Assembly (NCBI RefSeq): GCF_012317045.1
Contig: NZ_CP051154.1
Span: 620,001 to 684,000, forward strand
Direction: 5' to 3'
DNA length: 64,000 bases
From: Leifsonia sp. PS1209
GTDB lineage: Bacteria > Actinomycetota > Actinomycetes > Actinomycetales > Microbacteriaceae
The position numbers and the translations under genes are program-made. The notes beneath the pieces are model-generated. The model was not told where the DNA came from, made no database searches, and was given only the letters and a program-made list of their open reading frames with translations. This document shows, one piece after another, positions 30,004 to 52,676 of this stretch (position 1 is the first letter of the stretch; every line of letters starts with the position of its first letter).

Positions 30004-30621
30004 ATGGGCATCTTCCGCCGGGGCCGCCGGGTGGACATGCGGCCGTTCGATGCGGCAGCCATCGAATCGCCGCGGCCCACCACCCTGGAGCACGCGCTCG
30101 AGGAGGGGCTGCTCATCGCCGACTACGCGGTGCGCATGGCCGTCCGCAACCGGATGATGACCGAACTCCTCACCACCGACCGCGCCTTCGACGCCGAGCA
30201 CTACCGTGAGGTCGCAGCGGAGGCCGTGCTGCGGCTGGCGGAGGAGGCGGACGCCTCCGAGGCCAGGATCGTGCGCGAGCAGGCGTGGGCGGAGGTGCAG
30301 GACGGCCGTGCGGAGCACACCCACGACTACCGCACGGCGGACTCGCTCAACCTCCGCAGGCGCGAAGCCCTCGCGAAGGCGACGGCGCGGGCCCTCCGCT
30401 CACGCGCAGCGGACCCCGACTACCTCGCAGACATCGTCGAGCACTCCCGCCAGGACGCCTGGCGGGAGTTGTCGTCTGTGGTGGAGGAGACGGTGCGCGT
30501 GCAGTCGGTCGGCGGCGACGAGCGTGGGCGGCAGCAGCGGATGGATGCGCTGCGCTCAGACATCGAGGCGCTGCGGAAGTCGCGCACGGCGCGCAAGCGG
30601 CGCCGGCCGGCCCACGGTTAG
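30004..30621 (+). CDS. Hypothetical protein
   Basis: 205 aa, not recognised. Start ATG follows AAAGGGGG. It is highly charged with no membrane segment, and the second half is predicted almost entirely helical (RREALAKATARALRSRAADPDYL...), ending in a basic KSRTARKRRRPAHG tail that could bind nucleic acid. Its stop overlaps the convergent GntR gene by 4 bases. Confidence 0.7.
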   Translation: MGIFRRGRRVDMRPFDAAAIESPRPTTLEHALEEGLLIADYAVRMAVRNRMMTELLTTDRAFDAEHYREVAAEAVLRLAEEADASEARIVREQAWAEVQDGRAEHTHDYRTADSLNLRRREALAKATARALRSRAADPDYLADIVEHSRQDAWRELSSVVEETVRVQSVGGDERGRQQRMDALRSDIEALRKSRTARKRRRPAHG

Positions 30622-31301
30622 CTCGCCGGATTTCCCTCGTCGTCCACCACGCTCGTCGTGATGCGTCGCGCGGCGATCTCGACGTGGTCGGCCATCGCCT
30701 GGGCCGCACGGTCGGTGTCGCCGCTCGCCAGCGCATCCACGAGGGCGTCGTGCGAGCGGGCGTGGGCCACGAGCTCGTCAGGGGCGAGGCTGGCGTTCGC
30801 CGCGCGGAGGAACCCGTTGATCCTGCTGCGGAGCTGGGAGGCGATGGTGAGGAGCGTGCGGTTGTCCGCCATCTCCCAGAGCGTCTCGTGGAAGCGGCGG
30901 TCGAGGGCGAACATCGTGTCGATGTTCTTGCGCTCCGCGGCGGCGACCATCGAATCGACGACCTTGCGCAGCTGCGCTTCCGTCTTCGGGGTCCAGGTCT
31001 GCTGCACGCGCTGGGCGACGTACTGTTCGAGCACGATGCGGAGGCTGGAGATCTCGGCGAGCTCCTTGTCCGTGAGCAGCGCGACGCGGGCTCCCCGGCG
31101 GGGCGTCCGTTCGATCAGTCCCTCCTCGGCGAGCTTCGCGAGGGCTTCCCTGACCGGGATGTGGCTGACGCCGAGCCGGTCGGCCAGCTTGCGTTCGACC
31201 AGTCTCTCGCCGGGTTCGAACGTGCCGTTCTGAATGGCCTCGCGCAGTTCGTCGGCCACCTTCGCCGAGATGTTCCTGTCGGAAACGCTCCCGAGTGTCA
31301 T
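30618..31301 (-). CDS. GntR/FadR-family regulator of the carbohydrate region
   Basis: 227 aa. The winged helix (VADELREAIQNGTFEPGERL...LADRLGVSHIPVREALAKLAEEGLIERTPRRGARV) is followed by an all-helical FCD ligand domain whose metal-binding histidines are in DRRFHETLWEMA, SHDALVDAL and DHVEIAARRI. ATG follows GGAGGAG. The repeated GCTATAGC-type site occurs between this gene and the divergent sugar operon, and again at 50.7 kb. This regulator is therefore the best candidate to control the whole 31-53 kb region in response to a sugar acid or similar effector. Confidence 0.9.
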   Translation of the reverse strand: MTLGSVSDRNISAKVADELREAIQNGTFEPGERLVERKLADRLGVSHIPVREALAKLAEEGLIERTPRRGARVALLTDKELAEISSLRIVLEQYVAQRVQQTWTPKTEAQLRKVVDSMVAAAERKNIDTMFALDRRFHETLWEMADNRTLLTIASQLRSRINGFLRAANASLAPDELVAHARSHDALVDALASGDTDRAAQAMADHVEIAARRITTSVVDDEGNPAS

Positions 31302-31366
31302 CGTTCTCCTCCGTTGGCGGACGCCGGCCGACGGCCTGTTCCTGCGAACCACCGTGATTATGCTTT

Positions 31367-31381
31367 GCTACAAGCTATAGG
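31367..31381. promoter_or_regulatory. GntR operator, site A
   Basis: GCTACAAGCTATAGG. It lies just upstream of a -10-like CATAAT for the gntR gene (minus strand), suggesting autoregulation. It matches site B at 12 of 15 positions. Confidence 0.65.
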
Positions 31382-31465
31382 ACGCGAGGATGGATTCGCG
31401 CCATCTCTCTCTGCGCCTTCTCAATGTTTCGAGCGGGTAAATCTTGCTTCCCGACCTTTTCATTT

Positions 31466-31480
31466 GCTACATGCTATAGC
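31466..31480. promoter_or_regulatory. GntR operator, site B, at the sugar-operon promoter
   Basis: GCTACATGCTATAGC, with a further half-site ATGCTATC at 31485-31492. It sits in an AT-rich stretch 79 bp before the first gene of the operon. It shares ATGCTATAGC with sites C and D at 50.7 kb. The remaining bases of this 257-bp gap show no gene. Confidence 0.75.
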
Positions 31481-31558
31481 AATAATGCTATCGTGGGAGC
31501 GTTCGACGGCGAACCCTCCCGGGCACAGCCGCAGCGATGAAGAGAAGGCCTAGGAGCG

Positions 31559-32833
31559 ATGGAAAACACCCCAGAGAGCACACGACCGGTGCGCATCGCA
31601 CTGATCGGCGCCGGCAACAGGGGGCAGTCGTACACGCGCTGGATCCACGCCAACCCCGAGAGGGCGCAGCTCGTCGCCGTCGCAGACCCGCGGGCGTTCC
31701 AGCGCGAGCTCGTCTCGCAGGGGAATGAGGGCATCCGGCAGTTCGACGACTGGCGTGAGCTGCTCGCTCTGCCGGAGCGGATCGCGGACGCGGTCATCAT
31801 CGCCACCCAGGACAGGCAGCACGTCGAACCGGCCATCGCCTGCGCCGAGCGCGGTTACGCGATCCTGATGGAGAAGCCGCTCGCCCCCACCGAGGAGGAG
31901 AGCAGGCGCATCGTCGATGCCGTCGATGCGAGCGGAGTGCTGTTCGGCGTCTGTCACGTGATGCGGTACATGCCGTACACCGATCTGGTGAAGAGCATCG
32001 TGGACACCGGGGTGCTCGGGGACATCATCAACGTGCAGCACCTCGAGCCCGTCGGCTGGTGGCACATGGCCCACTCGTACGTGCGCGGACCGTGGCGCAG
32101 GGAGGACCTGGCGGCCCCGATGCTGCTGGCGAAGTCCAGCCACGACCTCGACTGGATCAGGTACGTCACCGGCAAGCGCATCGCCGGCGTCGCGAGCTTC
32201 GGCTCCCGCCACCACTTCCGCCACGAGAACCGTCCGGCGGAAGCGGCGGACCGGTGCCTCGACTGCCCGCTCCAGAACAGCTGCCCGTATGCGGCGCAGA
32301 AGCTCTACCTCCCGGTCGTGCGCGACGAGGGAGCGGTCTGGCCGGTGACCGTCATCACCGACGACGCGACGGAGGCCGGAGTGATCGAGGCACTCAGGAC
32401 CGGTCCGTACGGCGTCTGCGTCTACGCCGCGGACAACACGGTCGTCGACAACCAGGTCGTCGCCCTGCAGTTCGAGGACGGAACAGCCGGCACCTTCGTC
32501 ATGACCGCGTTCAGCGAGCAGGAGCACCGGAAGACCCAGCTCTTCGGCTCGCACGGGATGCTCGACGGCGACGGGGAGCGGGTCACCGTCACAGACTTCC
32601 GCACCGGAGAGTCCGCCGTCTACGAGACGGCGCCGACGGGTGCGGCCAACGCCGGGGGAGACCACGGCGGAGGAGACGGCGGCGTCATGAACGCCTTCGT
32701 CGCAGCGGTCGCCACCGGCGACCCGTCGTACATCCGGTCAGGACCGCGCGAGTCGCTCGACAGCCATCTCGCCGTCTTCGCCGCAGAGCGGTCACGGCAC
32801 CACGGCACCGTGGAGTCCGTTCCCCGAGCCTGA
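31559..32833 (+). CDS. Gfo/Idh/MocA family oxidoreductase
   Basis: 424 aa NAD(P)-dependent sugar dehydrogenase fold. The Rossmann motif is LIGAGNRG (about 15-22), the catalytic Lys106 lies in MEKPLAPT, and a His is in KSSHDLDW (195). A Cys cluster (Cys233, Cys236, Cys242 in CLDCPLQNSC) suggests a metal site, as in one subset of this family. Good ribosome binding site (AGGAG). First gene of the 14-gene carbohydrate run. Confidence 0.88.
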   Translation: MENTPESTRPVRIALIGAGNRGQSYTRWIHANPERAQLVAVADPRAFQRELVSQGNEGIRQFDDWRELLALPERIADAVIIATQDRQHVEPAIACAERGYAILMEKPLAPTEEESRRIVDAVDASGVLFGVCHVMRYMPYTDLVKSIVDTGVLGDIINVQHLEPVGWWHMAHSYVRGPWRREDLAAPMLLAKSSHDLDWIRYVTGKRIAGVASFGSRHHFRHENRPAEAADRCLDCPLQNSCPYAAQKLYLPVVRDEGAVWPVTVITDDATEAGVIEALRTGPYGVCVYAADNTVVDNQVVALQFEDGTAGTFVMTAFSEQEHRKTQLFGSHGMLDGDGERVTVTDFRTGESAVYETAPTGAANAGGDHGGGDGGVMNAFVAAVATGDPSYIRSGPRESLDSHLAVFAAERSRHHGTVESVPRA

Positions 32834-32888
32834 CAGCGTTCCACCCCACCCGAGCGACATCCGTGTCGCGCCACCGAGAAGGAGCAGC

Positions 32889-34133: not shown

Positions 34134-34144
34134 CAAGCCCTTTG

Positions 34145-34191: not shown

Positions 34192-35154
34192 GTGACAACG
34201 ACCAGACCGGCCCCGGCGGCGTCCAGACCCCCGGAGCAGCGCGAGCAGCGTGAGCAGCGCAGAGACGCCGGGCGACCGCCAGGCCTGACCAAGCGCATCC
34301 TGGCCAGGCGTGAGGCCCGCATCGGTCTCTTCTTCGTGCTTCCCGCGTTCCTGCTGTTCCTGGCGTTCCGCTTCGGACCGGCGCTGGCCGGCGTCGGCCT
34401 GAGCTTCTTCGACTACGACATCTCCGGAGAGCTCGACTGGAAGGGCGTCGGCAACTTCCAGCGGATGTTCGCCGACCCGGTGTTCTGGCAGGCGCTGCGG
34501 GTCACGCTGATCTACTCCGTGCTGGCCGTGCCGATCTCGGTGGCCCTGTCGATCGCGATGGCGCTCGGTGTTCGGAGGGCGTTCCGCGGCTCGCGGATCT
34601 TCCGCTCGGTGTTCTTCCTCCCGGTGATCACCTCGCTGGTGCTCGCGGGGGCCATCTTCAAGTGGATCTTCTCCAGCGACGGCCCGTGGTCGACGCTGAT
34701 GACGCCGCTCGGTCTCGGCGGCTCGTGGCTGAACTCGACCGTCCTGGTCATCCCCGCGCTGGTGATCGTGGGCGTGTGGTCCCGGTTCGGCTACGGGATG
34801 CTCATCGTCATCGCCGCGCTCCAGGACGTGCCGAGAGAGCTGGAGGAGGCGGCGCTGATGGACGGGGCGAGCGCGTGGGCGCGGTTCAGGTTCATCGTGC
34901 TCCCGTACCTCAAGCCCACCGTGTTCTTCCTCGCCGTCATCGAGACGACGGCGTCGTTCCAGGTGTTCGACCTGGTCTACGTGATGACCCAGGGCGGACC
35001 GGCGCACGGCAGCTACTCGCTCGTCTACATGCTCTACGACCAGGGCTTCAAGTACACCGACTACGGGTACGCCGCCGCCATCGGCGTCGCCCTGTTCGTC
35101 ATGACACTCGTCGTCGCGCTCATCCAGCGCCGCGTGATCGGGAGGCAGAAATGA
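34192..35154 (+). CDS. Sugar ABC transporter permease, MalF-like
   Basis: 320 aa CUT1 inner-membrane protein. A 40-residue charged, Glu/Arg/Gln-rich N-terminus precedes six helices (LFFVLPAFLLFLAFRFGPAL first). The EAA loop is EEAALMDGASAWARFRFIVLPYLKP. GTG start behind AAGGAGGAGGAA. It overlaps the next permease by 4 bases. Confidence 0.92.
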   Translation: MTTTRPAPAASRPPEQREQREQRRDAGRPPGLTKRILARREARIGLFFVLPAFLLFLAFRFGPALAGVGLSFFDYDISGELDWKGVGNFQRMFADPVFWQALRVTLIYSVLAVPISVALSIAMALGVRRAFRGSRIFRSVFFLPVITSLVLAGAIFKWIFSSDGPWSTLMTPLGLGGSWLNSTVLVIPALVIVGVWSRFGYGMLIVIAALQDVPRELEEAALMDGASAWARFRFIVLPYLKPTVFFLAVIETTASFQVFDLVYVMTQGGPAHGSYSLVYMLYDQGFKYTDYGYAAAIGVALFVMTLVVALIQRRVIGRQK

Positions 35155-36020
35155 CCGCCGCGACCCAACGCATCCCGCGCACCAGGCGTGCGTACCGGGC
35201 GCTCGAGCCGAGCAGGATGGGCCTCGTCGTGCGCTACATCTGGCTGACGATCGCCGCCGTCGTGTGCTTCTTCCCGTTCTACGCGATGGTGATCCTCAGC
35301 CTGAAGCCCGGCCTCGCCGTCGACTTCCCCGCGAGCCTGATGCCGTGGAACCTGTCGACCGCGTCGTACGAGCAGGTGCTCGGCGGGCAGAACATCCTAG
35401 TCTGGGTGGGCAACACGCTGATCTACGCCCTGGTCAGCGTCGTCGCCGTGCTGCTGCTGTCCGCGATGGCGGGCTACGCGTTCGCGAAGAAGCGGTTCCG
35501 GGGCAAGGAGACGATGTTCTGGTCGTTCCTCGCCATGGTGATGGTGCCGTTCCACGTGACCCTCATCCCCACGTTCATCGTGCTGGCGAAGCTCGGCGGC
35601 GTGGACACGTACTGGGGCCTGATCCTGCCGACGCTCGCGAACGCGCAGGCGGTGTTCCTGATGCGACAGTTCATCCAGGGTCTCCCGGACGAGCTGTTCG
35701 AGGCGGCGAGGATCGACGGCGCAGGCGAGTTCCGGATCTTCCTCACCATCGTGCTCCCGCTCTGCAAGCCGGTGCTCGCCACCCTCGGCGTCTTCATCTT
35801 CCTCTGGCACTGGAACGACTTCCTCTGGCCGCTGATCATGGCCAAGAGCTCCGACATGTGGACGCTCACCGTCGGCGTCGCGTCGCTGCAGCAGCAGAAC
35901 GTCCCGCTCAGCGTGATGCTCGCCGGCTCGGTCGTCGCCCTCGTCCCCATCTTCTTCGCCTATGCCGTGGCTCAGCGCTACGTGCAGGAAGGCGTCACAT
36001 CGGCGGGCATCAAGGGATGA
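35151..36020 (+). CDS. Sugar ABC transporter permease, MalG-like
   Basis: 289 aa partner permease with six helices; EAA loop ELFEAARIDGAGEFRIFLTIVLPLCKP, and the family ending QRYVQEGVTSAGIKG. ATGA overlap with the MalF-like gene. It forms the channel with that protein. Confidence 0.92.
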   Translation: MTAATQRIPRTRRAYRALEPSRMGLVVRYIWLTIAAVVCFFPFYAMVILSLKPGLAVDFPASLMPWNLSTASYEQVLGGQNILVWVGNTLIYALVSVVAVLLLSAMAGYAFAKKRFRGKETMFWSFLAMVMVPFHVTLIPTFIVLAKLGGVDTYWGLILPTLANAQAVFLMRQFIQGLPDELFEAARIDGAGEFRIFLTIVLPLCKPVLATLGVFIFLWHWNDFLWPLIMAKSSDMWTLTVGVASLQQQNVPLSVMLAGSVVALVPIFFAYAVAQRYVQEGVTSAGIKG

Positions 36021-36046: not shown

Positions 36047-37069
36047 ATGTTCACCTCAGAGATCGAGCTCGAAGACGCCCTCGCCACCCCGCGCCCCGAG
36101 CTGGTCGCCGACCTGGCGGAGTCGTCCGGCGACATCGTCATCCTCGGCGCCGGCGGCAAGATGGGCCCGAGCCTGTCCAGGCTCGCCCGCAACGCCCTCG
36201 ACCAGGCCGGCCGCTCGTCCGACATCGTCTACGCCGTCTCCCGGTTCTCGAACCAGGAGGCGCGCAGCGGCCTGGAGGAGAAGGGGGTGACGACGGTGCC
36301 GTTCGACCTGCTCTCCGACGACGACTTCGCTGCGCTGCCGGATGCGCAGAACGTGGTGTTCATGGTCGGTGCAAAGTTCGGGGCGGCGACCAACGCATCC
36401 TGGGCGTGGGCGGTCAACGCCGCGCTTCCCGACCGGGTGGCCAGGCGGTACAGGGACAGCGCGATCACCGCGATGTCCACCGGCAACGTCTATCCGTTCG
36501 TGTCGCCGGCGAGCGGAGGGTCGGTCGAGACCGATGCGCCAGCTCCCGTCGGCGAGTACGCCATGTCGTGCCTTGGCAGGGAGCGCGTGTTCGAGTTCGC
36601 CGCGCTCACCCGCGCGACGCCGGTCTCCGTCGTGCGGCTCAACTACGCCATCGACCTCCGCTACGGGGTGCTGGCGGACATCGCGTCGACCGTGCTCGCC
36701 GGGGAGCCGGTGTCGCTGACGACGGGAACGGCGAACGTGGTGTGGCAGGGCTACGCCAACGAGGTGGTCCTCCGGTCGATGCGGCACGCGAGCGAGTCGG
36801 TGTTCACCGTCAACCTGACCGGGCCGGAGCAGCTCTCCGTGCGGGCGGTCGCGCAGCGCTTCGGGGAGCTGTTCGACCGCGAGGTGCAGTTCGACGGCAC
36901 GGAGGCGCCGACAGCACTGCTCAACAACGCCGGCAGGTGCTTCGAGCTGTTCGGCTACCCGTCCGTTCCGGCCGGCACACTCGTCGAGTGGCAGGCTGAC
37001 TGGCTCTCCCGCGGGCTCCCCACCTCCGGCAAACCCACCAAGTGGGCCGTCAGGGACGGGAGGTTCTGA
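36047..37069 (+). CDS. NAD-dependent epimerase/dehydratase family protein
   Basis: 340 aa Rossmann protein. Nucleotide motif VILGAGGKMGPSL lies at about residues 35-47. The expected YxxxK catalytic pair is not obvious: the equivalent region reads EYAMSCLGRERVFEF, with Tyr but Gly-Arg instead of Lys. The chemistry may therefore differ. I start it at ATG 36047 behind AGGAAAGG; an ATG at 36017 overlapping the permease stop is possible. It is cotranscribed with the importer, so a role in sugar modification is inferred. Confidence 0.8.
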   Translation: MFTSEIELEDALATPRPELVADLAESSGDIVILGAGGKMGPSLSRLARNALDQAGRSSDIVYAVSRFSNQEARSGLEEKGVTTVPFDLLSDDDFAALPDAQNVVFMVGAKFGAATNASWAWAVNAALPDRVARRYRDSAITAMSTGNVYPFVSPASGGSVETDAPAPVGEYAMSCLGRERVFEFAALTRATPVSVVRLNYAIDLRYGVLADIASTVLAGEPVSLTTGTANVVWQGYANEVVLRSMRHASESVFTVNLTGPEQLSVRAVAQRFGELFDREVQFDGTEAPTALLNNAGRCFELFGYPSVPAGTLVEWQADWLSRGLPTSGKPTKWAVRDGRF

Positions 37070-37070
37070 G

Positions 37071-38147
37071 GTGCTGTCCACTCCGCTCACCGCTCCCGCC
37101 CTCCCGGAGGAGATCGCGGCGCTGCTCGCGCGCGGCACGGTCGTCCCCGCGCATCCACTGGCTCTGGATGCGCACCGCAGGCTCGACGAGCGCCGCCAGC
37201 GCGCGCTCACCCGCTACTATCTCGCTGCCGGAGCGGGCGGCATCGCCATCGCCGTGCACACGACGCAGTTCGAGATCCACGAACCGGAGCGCGGACTGCT
37301 CGAACCGGTGCTCGCCCTCACCGCCGACGTGCTCGACAGGGAGGCGGACCGCCCGCTGGTCAGGATCGCCGGAGTTGTCGGCGACACCGCCCAGGCGGTG
37401 CGGGAGGCGCAGCTCGCCGCCGGGCTCGGCTACCACGCCGTGCTGCTCAGCCCCCGGGTCGCCGGGGCGGACGACGACGCGCTGATCGAACGCGCGCGCG
37501 CCGTGGGCGAGGTGCTGCCGGTGGTCGGCTTCTACCTGCAGGAGGCCATCGGAGGGCCGGTGCTCTCGCGCTCGTTCTGGCGCAGATTCGCCGATCTGCC
37601 GTCGGTGGTGGCCGTCAAGGCCGCTCCGTTCGACCGGTACCGCACCGCCGAACTCGTGCGCGGCGTCTCGGAGTCCGACCGTGCGGACGCCGTGAGCCTC
37701 TACACCGGCAACGACGACGCGATCGTCGCCGACCTCACCGCCGTCCACCACGTCGAGACGCCGTCCGGGATGCGCGAGGCGCGCTTCGTCGGAGGGCTGC
37801 TCGGGCAGTGGGCGGTTGGCACGCGTGCGGCGACGCAGGTGCTGGCGCTCGCCCACCGGGCGGCGGACGGCGACCGCGAGGCCGGAGCGGAGCTCAGCGG
37901 CCTCGCCGCCGACCTCACCGACCTCAACTCCGCCGTGTTCGACCCGGCCAACGGGTTCGCCGGAGTGATCGCCGGGGTGCACGAGATGCTGCGCCAGCAG
38001 GGGCTGCTCGACGGCATCTGGTGCCTCGACGAGCACGAGACGCTGTCGCCGGGGCAGGCGGAGGAGATCGAACGGGTGCGGCGGCAGTACCCGCACCTCA
38101 ACGACGACGCGTTCATCGCGGAGCACCGCGACGAGTGGCTGCGCTGA
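37071..38147 (+). CDS. Dihydrodipicolinate synthase-like aldolase/lyase
   Basis: 358 aa, longer than DapA (about 295). TIM-barrel DapA/N-acetylneuraminate-lyase fold, with the Schiff-base Lys in SVVAVKAAPFDRYRT and a partner Tyr in GFYLQEAIGGPVL. In sugar-acid pathways such proteins cleave or dehydrate 2-keto-3-deoxy acids; the exact substrate is unknown. GTG start immediately after the epimerase gene, and its stop overlaps the next ATG by one base. Confidence 0.8.
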   Translation: MLSTPLTAPALPEEIAALLARGTVVPAHPLALDAHRRLDERRQRALTRYYLAAGAGGIAIAVHTTQFEIHEPERGLLEPVLALTADVLDREADRPLVRIAGVVGDTAQAVREAQLAAGLGYHAVLLSPRVAGADDDALIERARAVGEVLPVVGFYLQEAIGGPVLSRSFWRRFADLPSVVAVKAAPFDRYRTAELVRGVSESDRADAVSLYTGNDDAIVADLTAVHHVETPSGMREARFVGGLLGQWAVGTRAATQVLALAHRAADGDREAGAELSGLAADLTDLNSAVFDPANGFAGVIAGVHEMLRQQGLLDGIWCLDEHETLSPGQAEEIERVRRQYPHLNDDAFIAEHRDEWLR

Positions 38148-42475: not shown

Positions 42476-44664
42476 CAGCGTCACCCGTTCCACCTCGCAC
42501 CCCCGCAAGCACGCGTCGTGGGCTGATCGTCGGTCTGAGCGCCGCTGCGCTCGGCGGCGTCGGCGTGCTCAACGCCGCCGCTCCGGCGGAGGCGACCGCA
42601 CCGCAGAAGCCGGGCGCGTCCGGGGAGGTGCAGCAGGCGAGGACCGTCGCCGACCTCGGCAGGATCCAGGCGAAGGACGGCCAGCTCGCCATCGCGGCCG
42701 GATACCGCACGCCTGGCGACGCAGGACGGCTGATCTACCGGGGCGCCAGCGCGAAGGGCACGAAGGTCAACGGCGGCACCGTCGTCCCCGGCAAGAACGG
42801 GACCGTCTGGGTGCTGCAGCACGACGGCACCCTCGACTTCCGCGTCTTCGGCATCGACGGGCCGGGCCGGGCGGCGGACGACGCGCTCGACGCGATGGTC
42901 GGCGACCCCACCGTCGAGCGGATCGAGGCGCACACCGACCTCAACTTCGTGCGGCGTCACGTCTTCACCCGCTCCCGCATCGAACTCGACTTCGGCGGCC
43001 ATCTCATCACCACGGAGGGCATCGCGGCGAACAGCCACGACAACCCGTTCGGTGCCGTCCTCTTCTTCACGGGAACGCCGGAGGGTGCTGCCGTGCAGTA
43101 CACGCTGGCGGAGGCGTGGCCGGAGCTGACGGACGCGGTCTCCGTGCCGGACGCCTCGGTGTTCCCCGTCGACAGCTGGTGGGCGGTGCAGTGCGCACCC
43201 GTCGCGGGCGGAGGAGGGGACGAGCGGGAGCTGCAGCGCTTCGTCCGCGTGACACAGCAGCTCGACGCCACGCACATCCGGGTCGACTACCTGAACGGCT
43301 GGCCACTCGAAGCCGGCCGCAGCCTCAGCTGGCGCAAGGTCGCGCCGGTGGAGCGCGTGCGGGTGCGCAACATGCGCTTCGTGGGGTCGGGGCCGTACAC
43401 CGGGCCGACGGACGGCTCGCTCCCCGACGCCCGCGAACTCACCGGATCGCACCCGACGGCCTTCGAGTACGCCGTGCACTGCGACGTGTCCGACATCCAC
43501 GCGACGCACACCTGGTGGCCGGTGGTGATGCGCCGCTGGAACACCCACTTCGTCACGGAACGCTGCTCGATCGAGAACCCGCCGACCGTCTTCTACGGCG
43601 GCGCCGGCTACCTCACCCAGCAGATCTACTGCCTCTACGGGCACGTCCGCGACTGCACGTCCTCGAACGCCAGGCACCTCAACGACCTCACCGCGAGTGC
43701 ATACTGCATGGTGGAGAACTGCCACGGCGACGGCGACGACCAGGGCGGCAACCCGTTCACCACGCACGGCCAGTACGAGCACGACCTCACGTTCATCGGA
43801 TGCTCGGGGCTGATGGACATCGCCAACTCCGGAGCGCAGTGGGGCACGTCGGCGAAACGCATCACGGTGCGCGACCATGTCTGCTCCTGGTTCGTCGCCG
43901 GTACCAAGATCACCGACCTGACCCTCGAGAACGTGCGGGTCATCGGGCGGTCCACTTTCGACCCCCAGGCGACGCTCACGATCAACGCGGACGGCGCCCA
44001 GCTGCGTGGATGCACGGCAGGGCTTTTCGCCGTCGGCCAGCGCAGCGCGCGCTCCACCCGCCCGACGGTGATCGAGGACTGCACGTTCTCGCTGCCGAAG
44101 GGGCAGGTGCTGGTGCAGACGCCCGTGACGGCGACCGTCTCGTTCGTGCGCTGCCGCATCGACGGTATCGACGGCACCGTCGCCAGGGGGAGCGGGGCCG
44201 TCCGCTTCCACGACTGCGACCTGAGCGGCCCGGCGAAGGGCGACCCGTTCCAGCTCGCGGGAGCGGAGGTGACCGTGCGCGGAGGGACGCTCACCGGGGT
44301 CGCGCTGGTCGCGACGGCGGCGAAGGATCAGGTCGTCACCGTCGACGGCGCCCGGCTGAGCACAGACCGCACCGGCGGTGCGACGCTGAGCAGGGCGGCG
44401 GGGGCCGGCGTGGTCACCTGGCGGATCGACGGCGTGACCTCCTCAGCGCCGACGGGCACCCCGCACCTCGCGATCGAGTCCGGCGTGAACCACGCCAGAA
44501 TCGTCGGCTCCCAGTTCGGCGGGGGACGCCTCCACTTGCCGGACGCCGGCTTCGCGGCACCATCCACCCTGCTCTACGACGCGGCGATCGAGCGCGGCGT
44601 GGAGCGAACAGTTCCCGAACAGACGAAACGCATCATCGTCGGCGACAGCATCGTCGCCGACTGA
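42472..44664 (+). CDS. Tat-exported right-handed beta-helix protein, copy 1
   Basis: 730 aa. Twin-arginine signal STRRGLIVGLSAAALGGVGV (Arg15-Arg16) with cleavage near AEA-TA at about 41. The mature part has repeated short beta strands ending in Asn/Asp/Cys turns (IENPPTVFYGG, VENCHGDGDDQGG, FVRCRIDGIDG), typical of parallel beta-helix polysaccharide lyases and tailspikes. Conserved polar blocks include HTDLNFVRRH, SNARHLNDLTASAY and THGQYEHDLT. It probably binds or cleaves a polysaccharide outside the cell. ATGA overlap with the previous gene. No exact family recognised. Confidence 0.78.
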   Translation: MTASPVPPRTPASTRRGLIVGLSAAALGGVGVLNAAAPAEATAPQKPGASGEVQQARTVADLGRIQAKDGQLAIAAGYRTPGDAGRLIYRGASAKGTKVNGGTVVPGKNGTVWVLQHDGTLDFRVFGIDGPGRAADDALDAMVGDPTVERIEAHTDLNFVRRHVFTRSRIELDFGGHLITTEGIAANSHDNPFGAVLFFTGTPEGAAVQYTLAEAWPELTDAVSVPDASVFPVDSWWAVQCAPVAGGGGDERELQRFVRVTQQLDATHIRVDYLNGWPLEAGRSLSWRKVAPVERVRVRNMRFVGSGPYTGPTDGSLPDARELTGSHPTAFEYAVHCDVSDIHATHTWWPVVMRRWNTHFVTERCSIENPPTVFYGGAGYLTQQIYCLYGHVRDCTSSNARHLNDLTASAYCMVENCHGDGDDQGGNPFTTHGQYEHDLTFIGCSGLMDIANSGAQWGTSAKRITVRDHVCSWFVAGTKITDLTLENVRVIGRSTFDPQATLTINADGAQLRGCTAGLFAVGQRSARSTRPTVIEDCTFSLPKGQVLVQTPVTATVSFVRCRIDGIDGTVARGSGAVRFHDCDLSGPAKGDPFQLAGAEVTVRGGTLTGVALVATAAKDQVVTVDGARLSTDRTGGATLSRAAGAGVVTWRIDGVTSSAPTGTPHLAIESGVNHARIVGSQFGGGRLHLPDAGFAAPSTLLYDAAIERGVERTVPEQTKRIIVGDSIVAD

Positions 44665-44683: not shown

Positions 44684-46852
44684 ATGAACAGTGTTCAGGG
44701 CACCACCACCGATGCAGCATCCACCGCAGGGGCCCCGGCGTCCGGCACGAGACGCGGCCTGATCGTCGGCCTCGGCGCCGTCGTGCTCGGCGGCGCGACC
44801 GCGATCGGTGCCGCCACCCCGGCCGACGCGGCCGTCGCGGCGAAGAGCAGCGGCTCCGGCTCGATCCGCCAGGTGCGGCTCGTGCGCGACCTCGCCGGCG
44901 TCAAGGCGTCCGACGGCGAGCTGATCGCGGTCGCCGGGTACAGCGTGCCGGGGGACGCGGGCGATCTCGTCTACCGCGGAGCGTCGCGCTTCGACGGCAA
45001 GCCCAACGGCGGCACCGTCATCGCGGGCAAGAACGGCACGGTCTGGCTGCTGCAGCACTCCGGCACCGTCGACTTCCGGCAGTTCGGCGTCTTCGGGCCG
45101 GACAAGCCCGCCGACGACGCTCTGGATGCGATGGTCGGCGACCCGGCCGTCTCGCGCATCGAGGCGCACACCGACCTGAACTTCGTGCGCAGGCACATCT
45201 TCACCCGCTCCGGACTCGAACTCGATTTCGGCGATCACTTGATGACCACGGAGGGCATCGCCGCCAACACGTACGACAACCCGTTCGGCGCCGTGATGTT
45301 CTTCTCCGGGGTGGTGACCAAGGACGTCCAGGTGGCCACTCTCGCCGAGGCCGTGCCCGATCTCGGCGACATCTTCCCGGTCGCCGACGCCAGCTGGTTC
45401 GCCGTGGACTCCTGGTACGCCGCCGACGTGAACGCGCTCAGCGGGCGCTGGGAGAAAGAGCTGCAGAAGCTCGTCCAGGTGACTCAGATCGTCGACCAGA
45501 CCCACATCCGGGTGAACTACAAGAACGGCTGGCCGCTCGCCGAGGGCCGCACCATCACCTGGACCCGCGTCGAGCCCGTGCAGAACATCCGGATCAGCAA
45601 CCTCGTCTTCCGGGGCAAGGGCACCGACCAGTACACCGGCTCGCACCCGATCGCGTTCGAGTACGCGGTGCGCTGCGACGTGGAGAGGGTGGTCGGCTCC
45701 CTCACCTTCTGGCCGCTGATCATGCGGCGCTGGAACACCTTCTACTCGACCATCGAGTGCACCCTCTCGAACCCCACATCCGTGACGTACGGCGGGGCGG
45801 GCTACCTGACCCAGCAGATCTACTGCCTCTACGGCTACGTCGCCAACTGCCACACCTCCAACGCCAGGCACCTCAACGACTTCACCGCGAGCGCGTACTC
45901 GATGGTCGAGAACTGCCACGGCGACGGAGACGACCAGGGCCCGTTCGTCACCCACGGCCAGTACGAGCACGACCTCACGTACACGGGCAACTCCGGGCTG
46001 ATGACGTTCGCCAACTCGGGAGCGGCCTGGGGCTCGGCGGCCAAGCGCATCACGGTGCGCAAGCACGTCTGCTCCTGGTTCGTCGCGAGGGTCCGCATCA
46101 CCGACCTCACCCTCGAAGACGTCAAGGTCATCGGCAAACCGTCGCTCGCGGGATCCGGGATGCTCTGGATCAACGCAGACGGCGCCCAGCTCACCGGATG
46201 CACGGCGGACAGCACGCTGGTGATCACGCAGTCGTCGTCCGCGTCGTCGCGGCCCACCGTGATCCGGGACTCCTGGTTCCGGTTCGCGGCGCCGGGCAAC
46301 CTCACCGACGCCAGCGTGAAGGCTCCCGTCCTGTTCGACGCGACGACGCTCGAGAACGTGGGCGGCGTGAAGATCCTCGGCGCGGGCGACATCACCTTCC
46401 GCGACAGCAGGCTCGGCGCGGCGGCCGGTGCCGACGCCCTGCAGACCTCCTCCGCGAACACCCGTTTCGAGGGCACCGTGCTCGACGGAGTCTCCGTGCT
46501 CGCCGCCGGAACCGCCGCCCAGACCGTCGAGGTCGTCGGCGGGAGCCGCGTGTCCGGTGCGGGAGGGACGGGCATCGGCCGCGGCGGCAGCGCAGCGGTC
46601 ACCGTGCTCTTCGCCGACAGCACCTTCGCCCGCTCGGACAACGGGGGTGCCCACGTGTCGCTGACCGGAGGGACGAACCACTACCGCGCATCCGGTTGCC
46701 GCTTCGACGGTGGCAAGCTCGAGTTGTCCGCCGCAGGCTTCGGGTCGGGATCGACCCTCCTGCATACGGCGAACGTCGAGACATCGGTGAAGCGCGTCGG
46801 CTTCCCCGACGACTCGGACCGGGTCATCACCGCGGGCAACATCTCCGTCTGA
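44684..46852 (+). CDS. Tat-exported right-handed beta-helix protein, copy 2
   Basis: 722 aa paralogue of the preceding gene, clearly from tandem duplication. The Tat signal TRRGLIVGLGAVVLGGATAI is nearly the same, and HTDLNFVRRHIFTRS, MTTEGIAAN.YDNPFGAV, GGAGYLTQQIYCLYG, SNARHLNDFTASAY and HGDGDDQG are shared. The last 200 residues diverge most. Start ATG follows AAAAGGAA. Two related exported proteins beside an importer suggest a polymer that needs two specificities. Confidence 0.78.
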   Translation: MNSVQGTTTDAASTAGAPASGTRRGLIVGLGAVVLGGATAIGAATPADAAVAAKSSGSGSIRQVRLVRDLAGVKASDGELIAVAGYSVPGDAGDLVYRGASRFDGKPNGGTVIAGKNGTVWLLQHSGTVDFRQFGVFGPDKPADDALDAMVGDPAVSRIEAHTDLNFVRRHIFTRSGLELDFGDHLMTTEGIAANTYDNPFGAVMFFSGVVTKDVQVATLAEAVPDLGDIFPVADASWFAVDSWYAADVNALSGRWEKELQKLVQVTQIVDQTHIRVNYKNGWPLAEGRTITWTRVEPVQNIRISNLVFRGKGTDQYTGSHPIAFEYAVRCDVERVVGSLTFWPLIMRRWNTFYSTIECTLSNPTSVTYGGAGYLTQQIYCLYGYVANCHTSNARHLNDFTASAYSMVENCHGDGDDQGPFVTHGQYEHDLTYTGNSGLMTFANSGAAWGSAAKRITVRKHVCSWFVARVRITDLTLEDVKVIGKPSLAGSGMLWINADGAQLTGCTADSTLVITQSSSASSRPTVIRDSWFRFAAPGNLTDASVKAPVLFDATTLENVGGVKILGAGDITFRDSRLGAAAGADALQTSSANTRFEGTVLDGVSVLAAGTAAQTVEVVGGSRVSGAGGTGIGRGGSAAVTVLFADSTFARSDNGGAHVSLTGGTNHYRASGCRFDGGKLELSAAGFGSGSTLLHTANVETSVKRVGFPDDSDRVITAGNISV

Positions 46853-46911: not shown

Positions 46912-47685
46912 ATGACCGCAACCCCCGCATCCACCCCCGTCGCCGTCGTCACCGGAGGGGCGGCCGGGATCGGCTGGGAGATCGGCCGCCGCCTGGCAGC
47001 GGACGGATACACGGTGGTCGCCGGCGACCTGGTGCCCGGCTTCACCGAGTCTGCGCCGGTCGACGGGATCGTGCACCGCAGGCTCGACGTGACCGACCCG
47101 GAGGACGTCGCAGCAGTCTTCGACGGGATCGCGGCCGAGTTCGGCAGGATCGACGTGGTCGTGAACAACGCGGGCATCCAGCGTCACCGTGCGATCGAAG
47201 ACCTGGCCTGGGACGAGTGGCGCGCGGTGGTCGACGTGAACCTGCACGGCGTCTTCCTCAGCCTGCAGGCGGCCGGACGGCACATGCTCGCGGCGGGAGG
47301 CGGACGCATCGTCAACATCTCCTCGATCTCGTCGCGCGGCTCGGCCGGGCGCGCGCCGTACGCGGCGACGAAGGCGGCGGTGATCGGCCTCACGGCCACG
47401 GCAGGCGCCGAGTGGGCGGCGCGCGGAGTCCGGGTGAACGCGGTGGCGCCCGGCTACGTGGACACCGGCGTCTTCCGCCAGGGGGTGGCAGCTGGCACCC
47501 TGAACGAGCAGACGATCCTCGCGCGCATCCCGGCCGGCCGTCTCGCCCAGGCCGAGGAGATCGCGGCGGCGGTGTCGTTCCTCGTCTCCGATCAGGCGTC
47601 GTACATGAACGGCCAGACCATCTACGTGGACGGCGGCTTCATGGTCGACTACGGGGTGCCGCTGGCCTCGGTGCCGAAGCCGTGA
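46912..47685 (+). CDS. SDR family oxidoreductase
   Basis: 257 aa classical short-chain dehydrogenase. Cofactor motif TGGAAGIG (about 15-22) with Asp in the DLVPG position after beta-2, favouring NAD; NNAG; catalytic Ser in ISSISSRG and YAATK. It would oxidise a sugar or deoxy-sugar acid hydroxyl. AAAGGA ribosome binding site; GTGA overlap with the next gene. Confidence 0.88.
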   Translation: MTATPASTPVAVVTGGAAGIGWEIGRRLAADGYTVVAGDLVPGFTESAPVDGIVHRRLDVTDPEDVAAVFDGIAAEFGRIDVVVNNAGIQRHRAIEDLAWDEWRAVVDVNLHGVFLSLQAAGRHMLAAGGGRIVNISSISSRGSAGRAPYAATKAAVIGLTATAGAEWAARGVRVNAVAPGYVDTGVFRQGVAAGTLNEQTILARIPAGRLAQAEEIAAAVSFLVSDQASYMNGQTIYVDGGFMVDYGVPLASVPKP

Positions 47686-48803
47686 GCACCGTCGTCTCCT
47701 CCGCACCGGATGCGGTGGTGCGCGACCTCCGCACCTCCACCGTCTCCCTGCCGCTCGCCCGGCCCCTGCACCTCGGCGCGATGACCGTCACCCGGCGCGA
47801 GTACGCCGCCGTGCGGATCTCCGACGGCGAGGGCAGCACCGGGATCGCGTACGGGCTCACCCGCGAGGCTCCGATGGCCGAGCTGGTCGAACGGCTGATC
47901 GCGCAGCACGTCGTCGGCGGAGAGCTGGATGTGCCGGCGCTCTGGGACCGCGCACTGCGGGGGAGCGCCATCGTGGGTCGCGTCGGACTCGTGCGCCGGG
48001 CGATCGGCCTCGTGGACATCGCGCTCTGGGATCTGCTCGGACGCCGCAGCGGACGCCCGGTCTGGCAACTCGTCGGCGCAGACGACAGCCCGCGCCAGGC
48101 GATGCTGGTCGCCGCGTACCCGACACCGGGGCGCACTGTGAACGACCTCGTGGACGAGGTCGTCTCGCAGTCCGCCGACGGCTGGCCGCTCGTCAAGCTG
48201 TCGCGCTCGCCGGACACGGCGCTGATGCGCGAGTTGCTCTCCACGCTGCGCAGGGAACTGCCGGCGACCACCGGCATCGTCGTGGACGTCGGCTTCGGCT
48301 GGCCGGACGCCGACACGGCCATCGCCGAGGTCGCCGAGTGGGGCGACCCGGAACTCGCCTGGCTGGAAGACCCCCTGCTGCCGGAGGACGTGACCGGATG
48401 TGCGCGCCTGCGCAGCGCGACCGGCCTCCGCGTCGGAGTCGGTGACGAGGTCACGGACCCCGGCGTCCTCAAAGCTCTCGCCGATGGCGGCGCCATCGAC
48501 CTGGCGCGGCTCGACGTCGTCGCCATCGGCGGGATCACCCCTGCGCTCGAGTTCGCCGCGTGGGCGGAGGACAGGGGGCTCCCGGTGTCCTGTCACATCA
48601 GCCCGGAGACGAGCGTGCACCTCGGCCACGGCGTCGGCGTCGAGACGTTCGGGCGCGGGCTAGGCGGCAACCCGTACGACCCGTCGCCGCAGCTGGTGGT
48701 CGGCGGTCCGGTCTTCGCGGACGGCACGGCGCGGCCGACGGCGGAGCCCGGCCTCGGGTTCTCCTTCGCGCCGGGTACCTTCGACTTCGGGAGGAACGCA
48801 TGA
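47682..48803 (+). CDS. Mandelate racemase/enolase-superfamily enzyme
   Basis: 373 aa, expected to dehydrate or epimerise a sugar acid using Mg2+. Metal ligands are Asp in VVDVGFGW, Glu in WLEDPL and Asp/Glu in VGDEV. The Lys motif is KLS (in PLVKLSRS) instead of the usual KxK, so one base Lys is missing. His in VSCHISPETS could be the alternative base. L-fuconate, galactarate and similar dehydratases belong here, but the altered motif prevents a firm call. Confidence 0.82.
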   Translation: MSTVVSSAPDAVVRDLRTSTVSLPLARPLHLGAMTVTRREYAAVRISDGEGSTGIAYGLTREAPMAELVERLIAQHVVGGELDVPALWDRALRGSAIVGRVGLVRRAIGLVDIALWDLLGRRSGRPVWQLVGADDSPRQAMLVAAYPTPGRTVNDLVDEVVSQSADGWPLVKLSRSPDTALMRELLSTLRRELPATTGIVVDVGFGWPDADTAIAEVAEWGDPELAWLEDPLLPEDVTGCARLRSATGLRVGVGDEVTDPGVLKALADGGAIDLARLDVVAIGGITPALEFAAWAEDRGLPVSCHISPETSVHLGHGVGVETFGRGLGGNPYDPSPQLVVGGPVFADGTARPTAEPGLGFSFAPGTFDFGRNA

Positions 48804-49585: not shown

Positions 49586-49910
49586 GCATGGAGGCGCGGC
49601 GGATCAGACCGCCGTGCACGTCGAATGTCGCGATGGTCTCCGTGCCGACGCCGTCGTTGACCACGTTCTCCCTGGCCACCACCCAGCGGTCGCCGAACAG
49701 GGCCGTCGCGTCGATGCTGCAGCTCAGCAGCGGGTTGTCGAGGCGTCCGGCGTAGAACGCGCGGATGGCCTCCCTGCCCACCAGCGGCGCGTCGGCGACG
49801 CCGGTCACCACCGCATCGTCGGCGTACGTGGCGACGAAGGCCTCGAGGTCGTGCGCGTTGAACGCATCCACCTGTGCTGTCACGGTCTGAAGCGCGGCGA
49901 GTGCCGTCAT
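49575..49910 (-). CDS. SnoaL/NTF2-like protein
   Basis: 111 aa, a single cone-shaped NTF2 domain (VDAFNAHDLEAFVATYADDAVV, then GREAIRAFYAG). Such proteins may be small isomerases, lactonases or ligand-binding partners; no catalytic residue can be assigned. AAGGAG ribosome binding site. It follows the SDR at 49957 in a two-gene unit of the GntR regulon. Confidence 0.75.
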   Translation of the reverse strand: MTALAALQTVTAQVDAFNAHDLEAFVATYADDAVVTGVADAPLVGREAIRAFYAGRLDNPLLSCSIDATALFGDRWVVARENVVNDGVGTETIATFDVHGGLIRRASMLKA

Positions 49911-49956
49911 CCGGTGTCTCCTTCTGTGTGCGGGTCGCGCGGTCGTCGGCTGTCGG

Positions 49957-50706: not shown

Positions 50707-50715
50707 ACCCAGAAC

Positions 50716-50786
50716 GCTATAGCATTTCGTCCGGATCTGCCGCGAAGAGCGTGGGGATGTGGCGATAAAACGCTAGATGCTATAGC
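50716..50786. promoter_or_regulatory. Divergent leaderless promoters with GntR operators C and D
   Basis: Site C GCTATAGCAT (50716-50725) and site D GCTAGATGCTATAGC (50772-50786) share the ATGCTATAGC core of site B at 31.47 kb. Each overlaps a -10-like TAGCGT placed 6-7 bases before a start codon (50706 minus, 50795 plus). The geometry is mirror-symmetric and both genes lack ribosome binding sites, fitting leaderless transcripts blocked by the regulator. Confidence 0.7.
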
Positions 50787-50794
50787 GTTTTGAC

Positions 50795-51775
50795 ATGACT
50801 TCCGACCTTGTCGTGATCACCGACTACGACCTGCCGGGCAGCGCTGCGGACGACACGCTGCGCGCCGCGGGCCTGACAGCGCGCCGGGCCGCCTCCGCCT
50901 CCGCCGACGACATCGTCGCCGCGGCAGAGGACGCATCCGCCCTGATCGTGCAGTGGGCGCCGGTCACCGCCGACCTGCTCGACCGCCTCCCCTCCGTGCG
51001 CTTCATCAGCAGGCTGGGCATCGGCTACGACATGATCGACGTTGCAGCGGCGAGCGAGCGCGGCGTGCTCGTCGCCAACACCCCGGCGTACTGCATCGAC
51101 GAGGTCGCGACGCACACCATCGCGATGATCCTCACGCTCGGCCGCGGCCTGGTCGGCTACGACCGCGCCGTGCGCAGCGGCGAATGGTCGGCCGTCGCCG
51201 CATCCCCGATGGCCATGCGCCCGTCGGCGACCACCGTCGCCGTGGTCGGCTACGGCCGCATCGGCTCCCTCGTCGCCCTCCGCTGCCGGGCGCTCGGGTT
51301 CCGGGTGATCGTGGCGGACCCGGTCGTCCCTGCCGCGCGCATCCTGGCGGACGGACTGGAGCCCGTCACCCTCGCCGACGCCGTAGCCCAGGCCGACGTG
51401 CTCACGCTGCACGCCCCGCTCACCGCCGCGACGCACCACCTGATCGGCCAGACGGCGCTCTCGTCGATGAAGCAGGGAAGCGTCATCGTCAACACCTGCC
51501 GCGGCCCGCTCATCGACGAGGAGGCCCTGGCCGACGCGCTCGAAGCTGGCAGGCTCGCCGGGGCGGCCATCGACGTCTTCGCGACGGAACCGCTCCCGTC
51601 CAGCAGCAGGCTCAGGATGCTCGACAACGTGCTGCTCACCCCACACGCCGCCTGGTACTCTCCTCAGGCGCTCGCCGACCTGCCGGTGCACGCAGCGAAC
51701 AACATCATCGACCACTGGGCAGGCCGTCCTGTGCCCGCCGTCGTGAACGCGGCGGCCGCGCAGCCGGTGCGCTGA
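50795..51775 (+). CDS. D-isomer-specific 2-hydroxyacid dehydrogenase
   Basis: 326 aa, close to the phosphoglycerate-dehydrogenase/CtBP group. VVGYGRIGSLVA coenzyme motif (about 150), catalytic Arg in NTCRGPLIDEEAL, Glu in DVFATEPLP and His in LLTPHAAWYS. It probably starts at a leaderless ATG. Tandem with an FAH-family hydrolase 37 bp downstream. Confidence 0.87.
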   Translation: MTSDLVVITDYDLPGSAADDTLRAAGLTARRAASASADDIVAAAEDASALIVQWAPVTADLLDRLPSVRFISRLGIGYDMIDVAAASERGVLVANTPAYCIDEVATHTIAMILTLGRGLVGYDRAVRSGEWSAVAASPMAMRPSATTVAVVGYGRIGSLVALRCRALGFRVIVADPVVPAARILADGLEPVTLADAVAQADVLTLHAPLTAATHHLIGQTALSSMKQGSVIVNTCRGPLIDEEALADALEAGRLAGAAIDVFATEPLPSSSRLRMLDNVLLTPHAAWYSPQALADLPVHAANNIIDHWAGRPVPAVVNAAAAQPVR

Positions 51776-51812
51776 ACGCCCGCCAGACCCGCTCGAACGA
51801 GGAGACAACCGG

Positions 51813-52676
51813 ATGCGCTTCCTGCGACTCGGAGACCACGGCGCCGAACGCCCCCACCTGCGTGACACGGACGGCACCGTGTACGACCTGAGCGGCGTGA
51901 CCGACGACATCGACCCTGCGTTCTTCGCCGCGGACGGCGTCGCCCGTGCCCGCGCCGCGCTGCAGGCCGGGGAGCTCCCCGTCGCGACCGGCTGGCAGGA
52001 TCTCCGCGTCGGCGCGCCCGTCGCCCGCCCGGCGGCGATCGTCTGCATCGGCCAGAACTACGCGGCGCACGCCGCAGAGTCCGGGGCCGAGCCGCCCGAG
52101 CATCCCATCGTCTTCTTCAAGCACCCCAACACGCTCGTCGGCCCCGACGACGACGTGCTGCTGCCGCCGGGCGCCCAGCGCGCGGACTGGGAGGTGGAGC
52201 TCGCCGTCGTCATCGGCCGCAGGGCGCGCTACCTCTCCTCTCCCGCCGATGCGCTCGACCACATCGCCGGCTTCGCCGTTTCCAACGACGTGTCGGAGCG
52301 CGAATACCAGCTCGACGTCTCCGGCGGCCAGTGGTCCAAGGGCAAGTCGAGCGAGACGTTCAACCCGTTCGGCCCGGAACTGGTCACCCCGGACGAGGTC
52401 GACCACCGCGCACTCCGCCTCCGCTCCTCGGTGAACGGGTCGCCCAGGCAGGACTCGACGACGGCCGACATGATCTTCGGCGTCGAGCACCTGATCTGGC
52501 ACCTCAGCCAGTTCATGGTCCTCGACCCGGGCGACATCATCAACACGGGAACCCCGCAGGGCGTCGCGCTCTCCGGACGCTTCCCGTACCTCGCAGACGA
52601 GGACACGATGGAGCTGACGATCGACGGGCTCGGAACGCAGCGCCAGCGGGTGCGCAGGGTGGTGCTCGCGGGCTAG
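51813..52676 (+). CDS. Fumarylacetoacetate hydrolase-family protein
   Basis: 287 aa. Conserved CIGQNYAAHAAESG, metal-binding Glu pair in DWEVELAVVIGR, Asp in GFAVSNDVSERE and the GTPQGVAL C-terminal motif. The family cleaves C-C bonds of acylpyruvates or diketo acids, such as 2,4-diketo-3-deoxy-L-fuconate, which would give pyruvate plus an acid. With SDR and enolase-type genes in the same regulon it fits the last step of an oxidative deoxy-sugar-acid route (inference). GAGGAG ribosome binding site. Confidence 0.87.
   Translation: MRFLRLGDHGAERPHLRDTDGTVYDLSGVTDDIDPAFFAADGVARARAALQAGELPVATGWQDLRVGAPVARPAAIVCIGQNYAAHAAESGAEPPEHPIVFFKHPNTLVGPDDDVLLPPGAQRADWEVELAVVIGRRARYLSSPADALDHIAGFAVSNDVSEREYQLDVSGGQWSKGKSSETFNPFGPELVTPDEVDHRALRLRSSVNGSPRQDSTTADMIFGVEHLIWHLSQFMVLDPGDIINTGTPQGVALSGRFPYLADEDTMELTIDGLGTQRQRVRRVVLAG

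Follow-up and report, generated by a model that had tools for sequence, protein, structure and literature searches.

A conserved operator shared by the carbohydrate genes of a Leifsonia cluster and its relatives, with a predicted role in scavenging an acidic deoxyhexose polysaccharide

In the actinobacterium Leifsonia sp. PS1209, a 22-kb cluster of carbohydrate genes carries one family of operator sequences, which is confined to this cluster within the genome and is kept at the same promoters across genera. The cluster occupies positions 30618-52676 of the window, i.e. the whole stretch of 64,000 nucleotides analysed here (positions 620,001 to 684,000 of contig NZ_CP051154.1), to which all coordinates without a prefix refer. 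The shared operator, taken alone, is held with high confidence, whereas the wider account built on it from sequence, namely a GntR-switched regulon for scavenging an acidic polysaccharide that contains a 6-deoxyhexose, is considered moderately probable. A preliminary description of this DNA had proposed a single regulon of 18 linked genes. That there is one regulon in this genome is well supported and the gene content was broadly right; the cluster comprises 20 genes, since two had gone unlisted, one for a GNAT-domain protein (40143-41099) and one for a SnoaL-like protein (49575-49910, minus strand).

The 10-mer ATGCTATAGC occurs in exact form three times in the window, at 31471-31480 (+), 50716-50725 (-) and 50777-50786 (+), which bears out the positions claimed earlier, and none of 100 shuffles of the window holds three copies. 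Across the whole genome (4,091,164 bases) these are the only exact copies, all of them in the cluster; hence the concern voiced beforehand that the motif might be frequent elsewhere does not apply. The probability that three random sites all land in the 22-kb stretch is about 1.6e-7, a value that refers to a stretch picked after the sites had been seen. The 8-mer GCTATAGC is found at five places genome-wide, as compared with 47 matches per strand of a reversed control pattern; with one mismatch allowed it is by itself no rarity in the window, where 6 copies compare with 5.9 expected. A chance motif was ruled out on the grounds of the shuffles, the restriction of the three exact genomic copies to the cluster and the rarity of GCTATAGC. 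A further pattern, TNTGCTANAGCNA, was badly framed and gave no match. The operators and the regulator gene are listed below.

31465..31491, no strand assigned: operator 1, a TGCTA half-site, the palindrome TGCTATAGCA and a further TGCTAT half-site; precedes the long plus-strand operon
50712..50727, minus strand: operator 2, holding TAGCGT (50714-50719, minus), 7 nucleotides (nt) before the sdr3 start codon
50771..50790, plus strand: operator 3, with a CGCTA half-site and TAGCGT (50783-50788) 6 nt before the hadh2 start codon
31367..31381, no strand assigned: variant operator GCTACAAGCTATAGG on the gntR side, with one mismatch in the 8-mer core
30618..31352, minus strand: gntR, GntR/FCD (FadR-subfamily) regulator; Pfam FCD 85.7 and GntR 74.3 bits, both over the cut-off; start as in the listed open reading frame (ORF), though translation may begin at a more internal ATG

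The two remaining copies of GCTATAGC, at 2.82 and 2.84 Mb (C1:2818400-2838800; L042, L043), lie away from the cluster and within ORFs. One is located in a Vsr-like endonuclease gene adjoining a C5-cytosine methylase, the other in an ORF that by eye is relaxase-like, near a phage-type integrase; both are mobile DNA and no regulon sites.

The variant at 31367, also claimed in the preliminary description, stands on mixed evidence. It is identical in L004 and L012, the two Leifsonia loci closest to the window by gene order and identity, and it is contained in one of three blocks upstream of gntR that differ little or not at all between the window and these two loci. On the other hand, it has a mismatch in the core and its matrix score of 2.8 compares with 23-26 at the three exact sites and up to 13.2 in shuffles, the matrix having been made from exact-core sites and thus undervaluing variants. 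The block of operator 1 is likewise kept in L004 and L012.

The right-hand part of the cluster (46.9-52.7 kb), in which operators 2 and 3 are situated, encodes a set of catabolic enzymes, among them three short-chain dehydrogenases (SDRs):

46912..47685, plus strand: sdr1, short-chain dehydrogenase; adh_short_C2 202.5 bits; start picked from the upstream GAAAGGA
47682..48803, plus strand: enol, enolase-superfamily (mandelate racemase type) acid-sugar dehydratase; MR_MLE_C 103.7 bits
48800..49585, plus strand: sdr2, short-chain dehydrogenase; adh_short_C2 145 bits
49575..49910, minus strand: snoaL, SnoaL-like protein; SnoaL_2 49.5 bits
49957..50706, minus strand: sdr3, short-chain dehydrogenase, divergent from hadh2; adh_short_C2 197.5 bits
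50795..51775, plus strand: hadh2, D-isomer-specific 2-hydroxyacid dehydrogenase; 2-Hacid_dh_C 183.8 bits
51813..52676, plus strand: fah, FAH-family hydrolase

Conservation of the operator was followed in 38 distinct loci, obtained by scanning species genomes once with the ceramidase-fold product of cer and spanning up to 10 kb on each side. They belong mostly to Microbacterium, in addition to Leifsonia, Leucobacter, Isoptericola and a few others, and share a core of gntR, cer, sdr1, enol, sdr2, snoaL, sdr3, hadh2 and fah; window proteins were mapped onto them with an sdr1 start at 46921, for which 46912 is the better choice. In these 739,685 bases 116 sites were detected, spread over 33 of the 38 loci, and none is inside a gene in the sense of a stretch matching a window protein, other ORFs being left out of this count. 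Because sites were gathered by their core (GCTATAGC, TGCTATAG or CTATAGCA), the invariance of the core letters is given by construction, which is true neither of the flanks nor of the last T of the hexamer discussed below. A site is present at hadh2 in all 31 loci having the gene, at sdr3 in 32 of 32 and near gntR in 26 of 32. In Isoptericola (L035), sites separately precede gfo1, bh2, the GNAT gene, cer and the sdr3/hadh2 pair. Given these separate sites, an accidental sharing of the motif by two unrelated clusters was rejected for the window; the modules are still separable. In a survey of 249 sampled genomes of the family, at least one exact ATGCTATAGC was encountered in 26, and the three genomes with a close hadh2 (E 1e-80 or better) hold 3, 5 and 2 copies. 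The same switch recurs in more than thirty related loci, so that results on the operator would carry over.

Within this operator family, the sites at sdr3 and hadh2 have a distinct architecture. At all 62 of them (31 hadh2 and 31 sdr3 sites) the downstream half of the palindrome reads TAGCAT or TAGCGT (TAGCRT) and is placed 6-8 nt before the start codon. The last T of this hexamer, invariant there (62/62), is found at just 1 of 27 other sites, which precede sdr1, cer, gfo1 or bh1. Since a TANNNT box at 6-8 nt from the start codon leaves no room for a ribosome-binding site, we infer leaderless transcripts, and the operator appears to overlap the leaderless promoters of sdr3 and hadh2. This suggests a merging of regulator site and -10 box at such promoters. 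Another FCD regulator, HypR, likewise covers a -10 region, as described in passages of PMC6608401. The sdr1 gene of the window has no site and is preceded by the ribosome-binding-like stretch GAAAGGA; it is therefore read as a member of the long operon.

The presumed repressor is the product of gntR. The stretch GVSHIPVREAL of its recognition helix is kept in 24 aligned regulators including that of the window, and its His presumably takes the place of FadR Arg45, a position assigned by eye. As in FadR-subfamily regulons, an FCD domain goes together with a palindromic site and additional half-sites; in the GntR family, weaker half-sites are known 7-12 nt from the site centre, according to passages of PMC4494728. 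These passages also give a consensus with GT/AC (TKGT/ACMA) boxes for most FadR-subfamily operators, which the core TGCTATAGCA with its GC/GC does not match. Since exceptions to GT/AC are named in the same passages, the assignment to the FadR subfamily by domain stands.

The left part of the cluster follows operator 1 and encodes a second enzymatic module with an ATP-binding cassette (ABC) importer, followed by cer and two exported proteins:

31559..32833, plus strand: gfo1, Gfo/Idh/MocA oxidoreductase; Pfam GFO_IDH_MocA 75 bits
32889..34133, plus strand: sbp, sugar-type solute-binding lipoprotein; SBP_bac_8 105.3 bits
34192..35154, plus strand: perm1, ABC permease; BPD_transp_1 62.5 bits (scanned from a longer ORF, start 34099)
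35151..36020, plus strand: perm2, ABC permease; BPD_transp_1 61 bits (longer ORF scanned)
36047..37069, plus strand: epim, NAD-binding epimerase/dehydratase-like protein; NAD_binding_10 17.3 of 27.2 bits, below the cut-off
37071..38147, plus strand: dapA-like, divergent DHDPS-type protein; DHDPS 15.3 of 22.1 bits, short of the Pfam gathering score for DHDPS/DapA class I aldolases
38144..39166, plus strand: hadh1, D-isomer-specific 2-hydroxyacid dehydrogenase; 2-Hacid_dh_C 156.8 bits
39220..40146, plus strand: gfo2, second Gfo/Idh-type oxidoreductase; GFO_IDH_MocA 32.7 of 24 bits
40143..41099, plus strand: GNAT-domain protein; Acetyltransf_9 51.1 bits
41096..42475, plus strand: cer, ceramidase-fold hydrolase; no signal peptide by eye
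42472..44664, plus strand: bh1, exported beta-helix protein; twin-Arg-type leader by eye
44684..46852, plus strand: bh2, exported right-handed beta-helix protein; candidate polysaccharide depolymerase

The proteins labelled epimerase-like, DapA-like and ceramidase-fold in the preliminary description all score below the Pfam cut-offs, the ceramidase fold itself being found. The dapA-like product, possibly an aldolase or dehydratase, is conserved in an alignment of 12 sequences, where the Lys of VVAVKAAP never varies, and a comparison with PDB sequences returned nothing under E 0.026. In 347 genomes sampled from the order, the dapA-like protein is present in 21, and epim adjoins its gene in 19 of 19 further loci. 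Together, gfo1, the importer, epim, dapA-like and hadh1 constitute a separable unit, of which gfo2 and the GNAT gene are less constant companions. Twelve wider second-module loci were read, among which L074 is the Isoptericola genome of L035, L071 the genome of L025 and L072 that of L011. The operator lies before this module in the window, in L004 and L012, in Isoptericola (L035/L074) and in L076, with an exact site preceding gfo1 in both L074 and L076. In L077-L082 the dapA-epim pair occurs without an importer. Moreover, in relatives the importer gives way to a gene of the major facilitator superfamily (MFS) beside gntR (10 loci) or to an oligopeptide-type ABC system (11-12 loci), while an SMP-30 gene stands last in 15 loci; one representative of each of these three kinds was profiled. 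There are two separable modules, to which the operator is common in some lineages only. The preliminary description had considered that the clusters might occur separately and under different regulators in relatives, which is partly so for the second module (L071-L073, L075), the operator being shared in L004, L012, L035 and L076.

The two exported proteins, 54% identical to each other, have relatives in 29 of the 38 loci. Neither matches a Pfam family over its cut-off or a PHROG family at E 0.01, and a search of bh2 against PDB sequences produced weak matches to maltose-binding-protein fusions only. The bh2 model is a right-handed beta-helix (predicted local distance difference test, pLDDT, 78.0; predicted template modelling score, pTM, 0.63). 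Foldseek places it closest to 9k4a, a depolymerase from a Klebsiella phage, and to 7w1c, the Klebsiella K1 capsule lyase. Ranked by Z, the Sf6 tailspike reaches 21.5, alginate epimerases about 20 and the K1 lyase 20.0 (483 residues, root-mean-square deviation 7.3). Model and fold matches thus give bh2 the long right-handed beta-helix of tailspike-type polysaccharide depolymerases. The substrate of the K1 lyase is a polymer made up of glucose, pyruvylated glucuronate and fucose, as stated in passages of PMC8822698, and the modelled fold of bh2 fits an acidic deoxyhexose polymer without proving one. In contrast to the phage capsule depolymerases described there (7w1c), the bh genes are chromosomal and their products show, by eye, a leader of the twin-Arg type; bh2, for which a depolymerase role is predicted, is matched about equally by other beta-helix enzymes.

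The cer product has the fold of neutral ceramidase, scoring 20.8 bits against PF04734, under the gathering score of 32.1. Its HTH..G motif and a His further along the chain are invariant and can be aligned with 2zws (E 4.3e-4); they are putative zinc ligands. Neutral ceramidases (2zws, 4wgk) have 630-670 residues, whereas cer has 459, with about 14-17% identity, and its gene, unlike theirs, sits among those of sugar-acid enzymes. IlvD/EDD dehydratases adjoin divergent cer copies in five of six cases examined, and two of them resemble L-arabinonate dehydratase in an NCBIfam scan. As side observations, L033 (Jiangella) keeps cer and sdr2, and L034 (a Nakamurella bin) keeps cer, fah and an oligopeptide-type importer, neither with a GCTATAGC site; cer-centred clusters do occur outside this regulon.

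The enzymes of the 46.9-52.7 kb half point to a sugar-acid pathway. The nearest solved structure of fah is an L-2,4-diketo-3-deoxyrhamnonate hydrolase (8gsr, 209.1 bits), and its best NCBIfam match is likewise a diketo-deoxyrhamnonate hydrolase (NF053535, 275.4 bits, cut-off 500). The enol protein groups with mandelate racemase and talarate/galactarate dehydratase, has acid-sugar dehydratases among its nearest relatives and matches talarate/galactarate dehydratase best in NCBIfam (107.8 of 500 bits). An alignment of 34 proteins retains the His of the Asp-His pair and shows a conserved Ser in the position of the second KxK Lys, presumably the pattern of enzymes using only the His side. Against the RhamDHLra1 profile, sdr3 scores 157.3 of 400 bits. 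In Route III, 2-keto-3-deoxy acids are oxidised at C4 and then split into pyruvate and lactate or glycolate, as published for deoxyhexoses (L-rhamnose, L-fucose) and pentoses (passages of PMC6336799). The dehydratase, SDR and FAH hydrolase genes occur together here, and their predicted products fit this non-phosphorylative route. Hence the earlier verdict of no complete pathway does not hold for this half, where a Route III set is recognisable, and is fair for the remainder. The kinds of enzyme are those of Route III (dehydrogenase, acid-sugar dehydratase, second dehydrogenase and FAH-family hydrolase), to which the window adds, relative to these passages, three SDRs, a 2-hydroxyacid dehydrogenase and SnoaL-like and ceramidase-fold proteins; no regulator or operator is described in the Route III passages of that paper. 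An L-rhamnose isomerase, RhaI, encoded elsewhere in the genome (C1:269828-270943) exceeds its cut-off (638.7 of 531.35 bits) and no fucose-isomerase domain is present in the genome, which indirectly makes a sugar other than L-rhamnose more likely. About 2 kb past fah, an LldD-type lactate dehydrogenase (PRK11197, 287.7 of 376 bits) is encoded next to what appears by eye to be its own GntR gene (54657-55919 and 55928-56659, both minus), a pair at which no exact or one-mismatch GCTATAGC occurs; the enzyme could use a lactate product.

According to the account considered moderately probable, one GntR/FCD regulator, probably a repressor, would govern a scavenging regulon. It would cover both -10 boxes at the divergent genes sdr3 and hadh2, the transcripts of which would start at or next to the start codon, and an acid of the pathway would release it from the operator. 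Exported bh1 and bh2 would cut an acidic polysaccharide, the fragments of which would enter through the sugar ABC importer, and the Gfo/epimerase/DapA-like/hydroxyacid-dehydrogenase module might handle one part of them. The freed sugar, most likely a 6-deoxyhexose other than L-rhamnose, would be oxidised by an SDR to a lactone, which would be opened (with cer as a candidate) to an acid that enol would dehydrate to a 2-keto-3-deoxy acid. Another SDR would oxidise the latter at C4 and fah would split the product into pyruvate and an acid of the lactate type, a possible substrate for oxidation by hadh2 or by LldD close by. A more specific version is put forward tentatively and is rather doubtful: a regulon dedicated to fucose-containing acidic exopolysaccharides, with chromosomal tailspike-like depolymerases, a cytosolic ceramidase-fold lactonase or sugar-amide hydrolase of a non-phosphorylative deoxyhexose route, and a GntR protein that binds, through an altered recognition helix, a GC-type operator embedded in leaderless -10 boxes. 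The account proposes a site of action for each of several groups without a Pfam family assignment here, i.e. the two exported beta-helix proteins, the ceramidase-fold enzyme of sugar-acid clusters and the DapA-like/epimerase-like pair.

A number of observations weigh against this account. Sites are absent from five of the 38 loci (L029, L032, L033, L034, L041), of which L029 and L032 are fragments of less than 5 kb and L041 matched just 40 residues of cer; no site lies within 600 bp of gntR in six of 32 loci (L011, L020, L024, L026, L027, L030); and sites stand at sdr1 in 18 of 35 loci and at cer in 5 of 37. One site (L011:19409) is near no mapped gene and three more are near genes outside the set of the window. 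The GCTA half-site precedes the palindrome at 29 of 31 hadh2 sites and is found on either side at just 57 of all 116, so the extra half-site is not general. In the family survey, 22 of the 246 genomes without a close hadh2 hold one exact ATGCTATAGC and one holds two, and four of those genomes or their kin (G016, G090, G170, G205) have a divergent cer without hadh2. As for the second module, no site with up to two mismatches precedes its sbp in L071 and L072 (Microbacterium, with gntR nearby), a ROK-family regulator accompanies it in L072, and in L073 and L075 the regulators ahead of it are of the IclR type. The reading of the regulator as a repressor, not an activator, is drawn only from where the sites lie. 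Residues 394-429 of bh2, within its most conserved block, have low confidence in the model, and alginate epimerases and other beta-helix enzymes match bh2 as well by Z. Finally, solved structures gave generic matches only for the SDRs, and none of the enzymes of the cluster passes a curated equivalog cut-off.

Among the rival explanations, it is possible though unlikely that the regulon breaks down a free sugar acid, a plain hexose or a pentose, with fah releasing pyruvate and glycerate or glycolate for use by hadh2. The talarate/galactarate dehydratase match of enol, the IlvD/EDD enzymes beside divergent cer copies, two of them L-arabinonate dehydratase-like, and the MFS gene by gntR in 10 loci, whose representative resembles a D-galactonate transporter (299.8 of 395 bits), would suit such a substrate, and Route III also serves pentoses (passages of PMC6336799); but fah is closest to the deoxyrhamnonate enzyme and the exported beta-helix proteins suggest a polymer. 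Markedly less probable is a regulon for L-rhamnose derived from rhamnogalacturonan or from glycosides of rhamnose, the isomerase route serving as a second path. It would explain why fah is closest to a hydrolase of the L-rhamnonate path, the RhamDHLra1 match of sdr3, and the His kept in enol together with Ser for the second KxK Lys, a pattern that we take to be like that of L-rhamnonate dehydratase. RhaI, however, is over its cut-off in this genome, and no cluster enzyme passes an equivalog cut-off.

Two further explanations are very improbable. A glycosphingolipid cluster with ceramidase-like cer and endoglycoceramidase-like enzymes would accord with the fold of cer and with a protein of glycoside hydrolase family 5 (GH5) behind an operator and by an importer in one relative (L049), whose match is to endoglycoceramidase; yet cer has no signal peptide by eye and falls under the PF04734 cut-off, sugar-acid dehydratases adjoin its divergent copies and there is no other sign of lipid catabolism here. 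Alternatively, GCTATAGC might merely be a shared promoter element instead of the operator of a regulator, as its coincidence with a -10 box in 62 of 62 sdr3/hadh2 cases could indicate; but the full palindrome extends past the -10 box, the completing T is missing at 26 of 27 other sites and the exact 10-mer is found in this cluster only, genome-wide.

In the literature search, which most subscription papers lie outside, no title or shown abstract describes the motif, the cluster or cer beside sugar-acid dehydratases, and the literature containing TGCTATAGCA, among the matches listed, looks unrelated by title. In many Microbacterium loci, sdr2 and snoaL are separated by an inserted gene of the DNA polymerase IV type (IMS 165.6 bits; L040:14166-15542, with similar ORFs in 15 loci). 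In genome G028, the operator (L049:2594) precedes a sugar importer and the GH5 protein mentioned above (L049:6109-7593), the sole NCBIfam match of which is endoglycoceramidase at 164.7 of 700 bits and may show a glycoside used by that relative.

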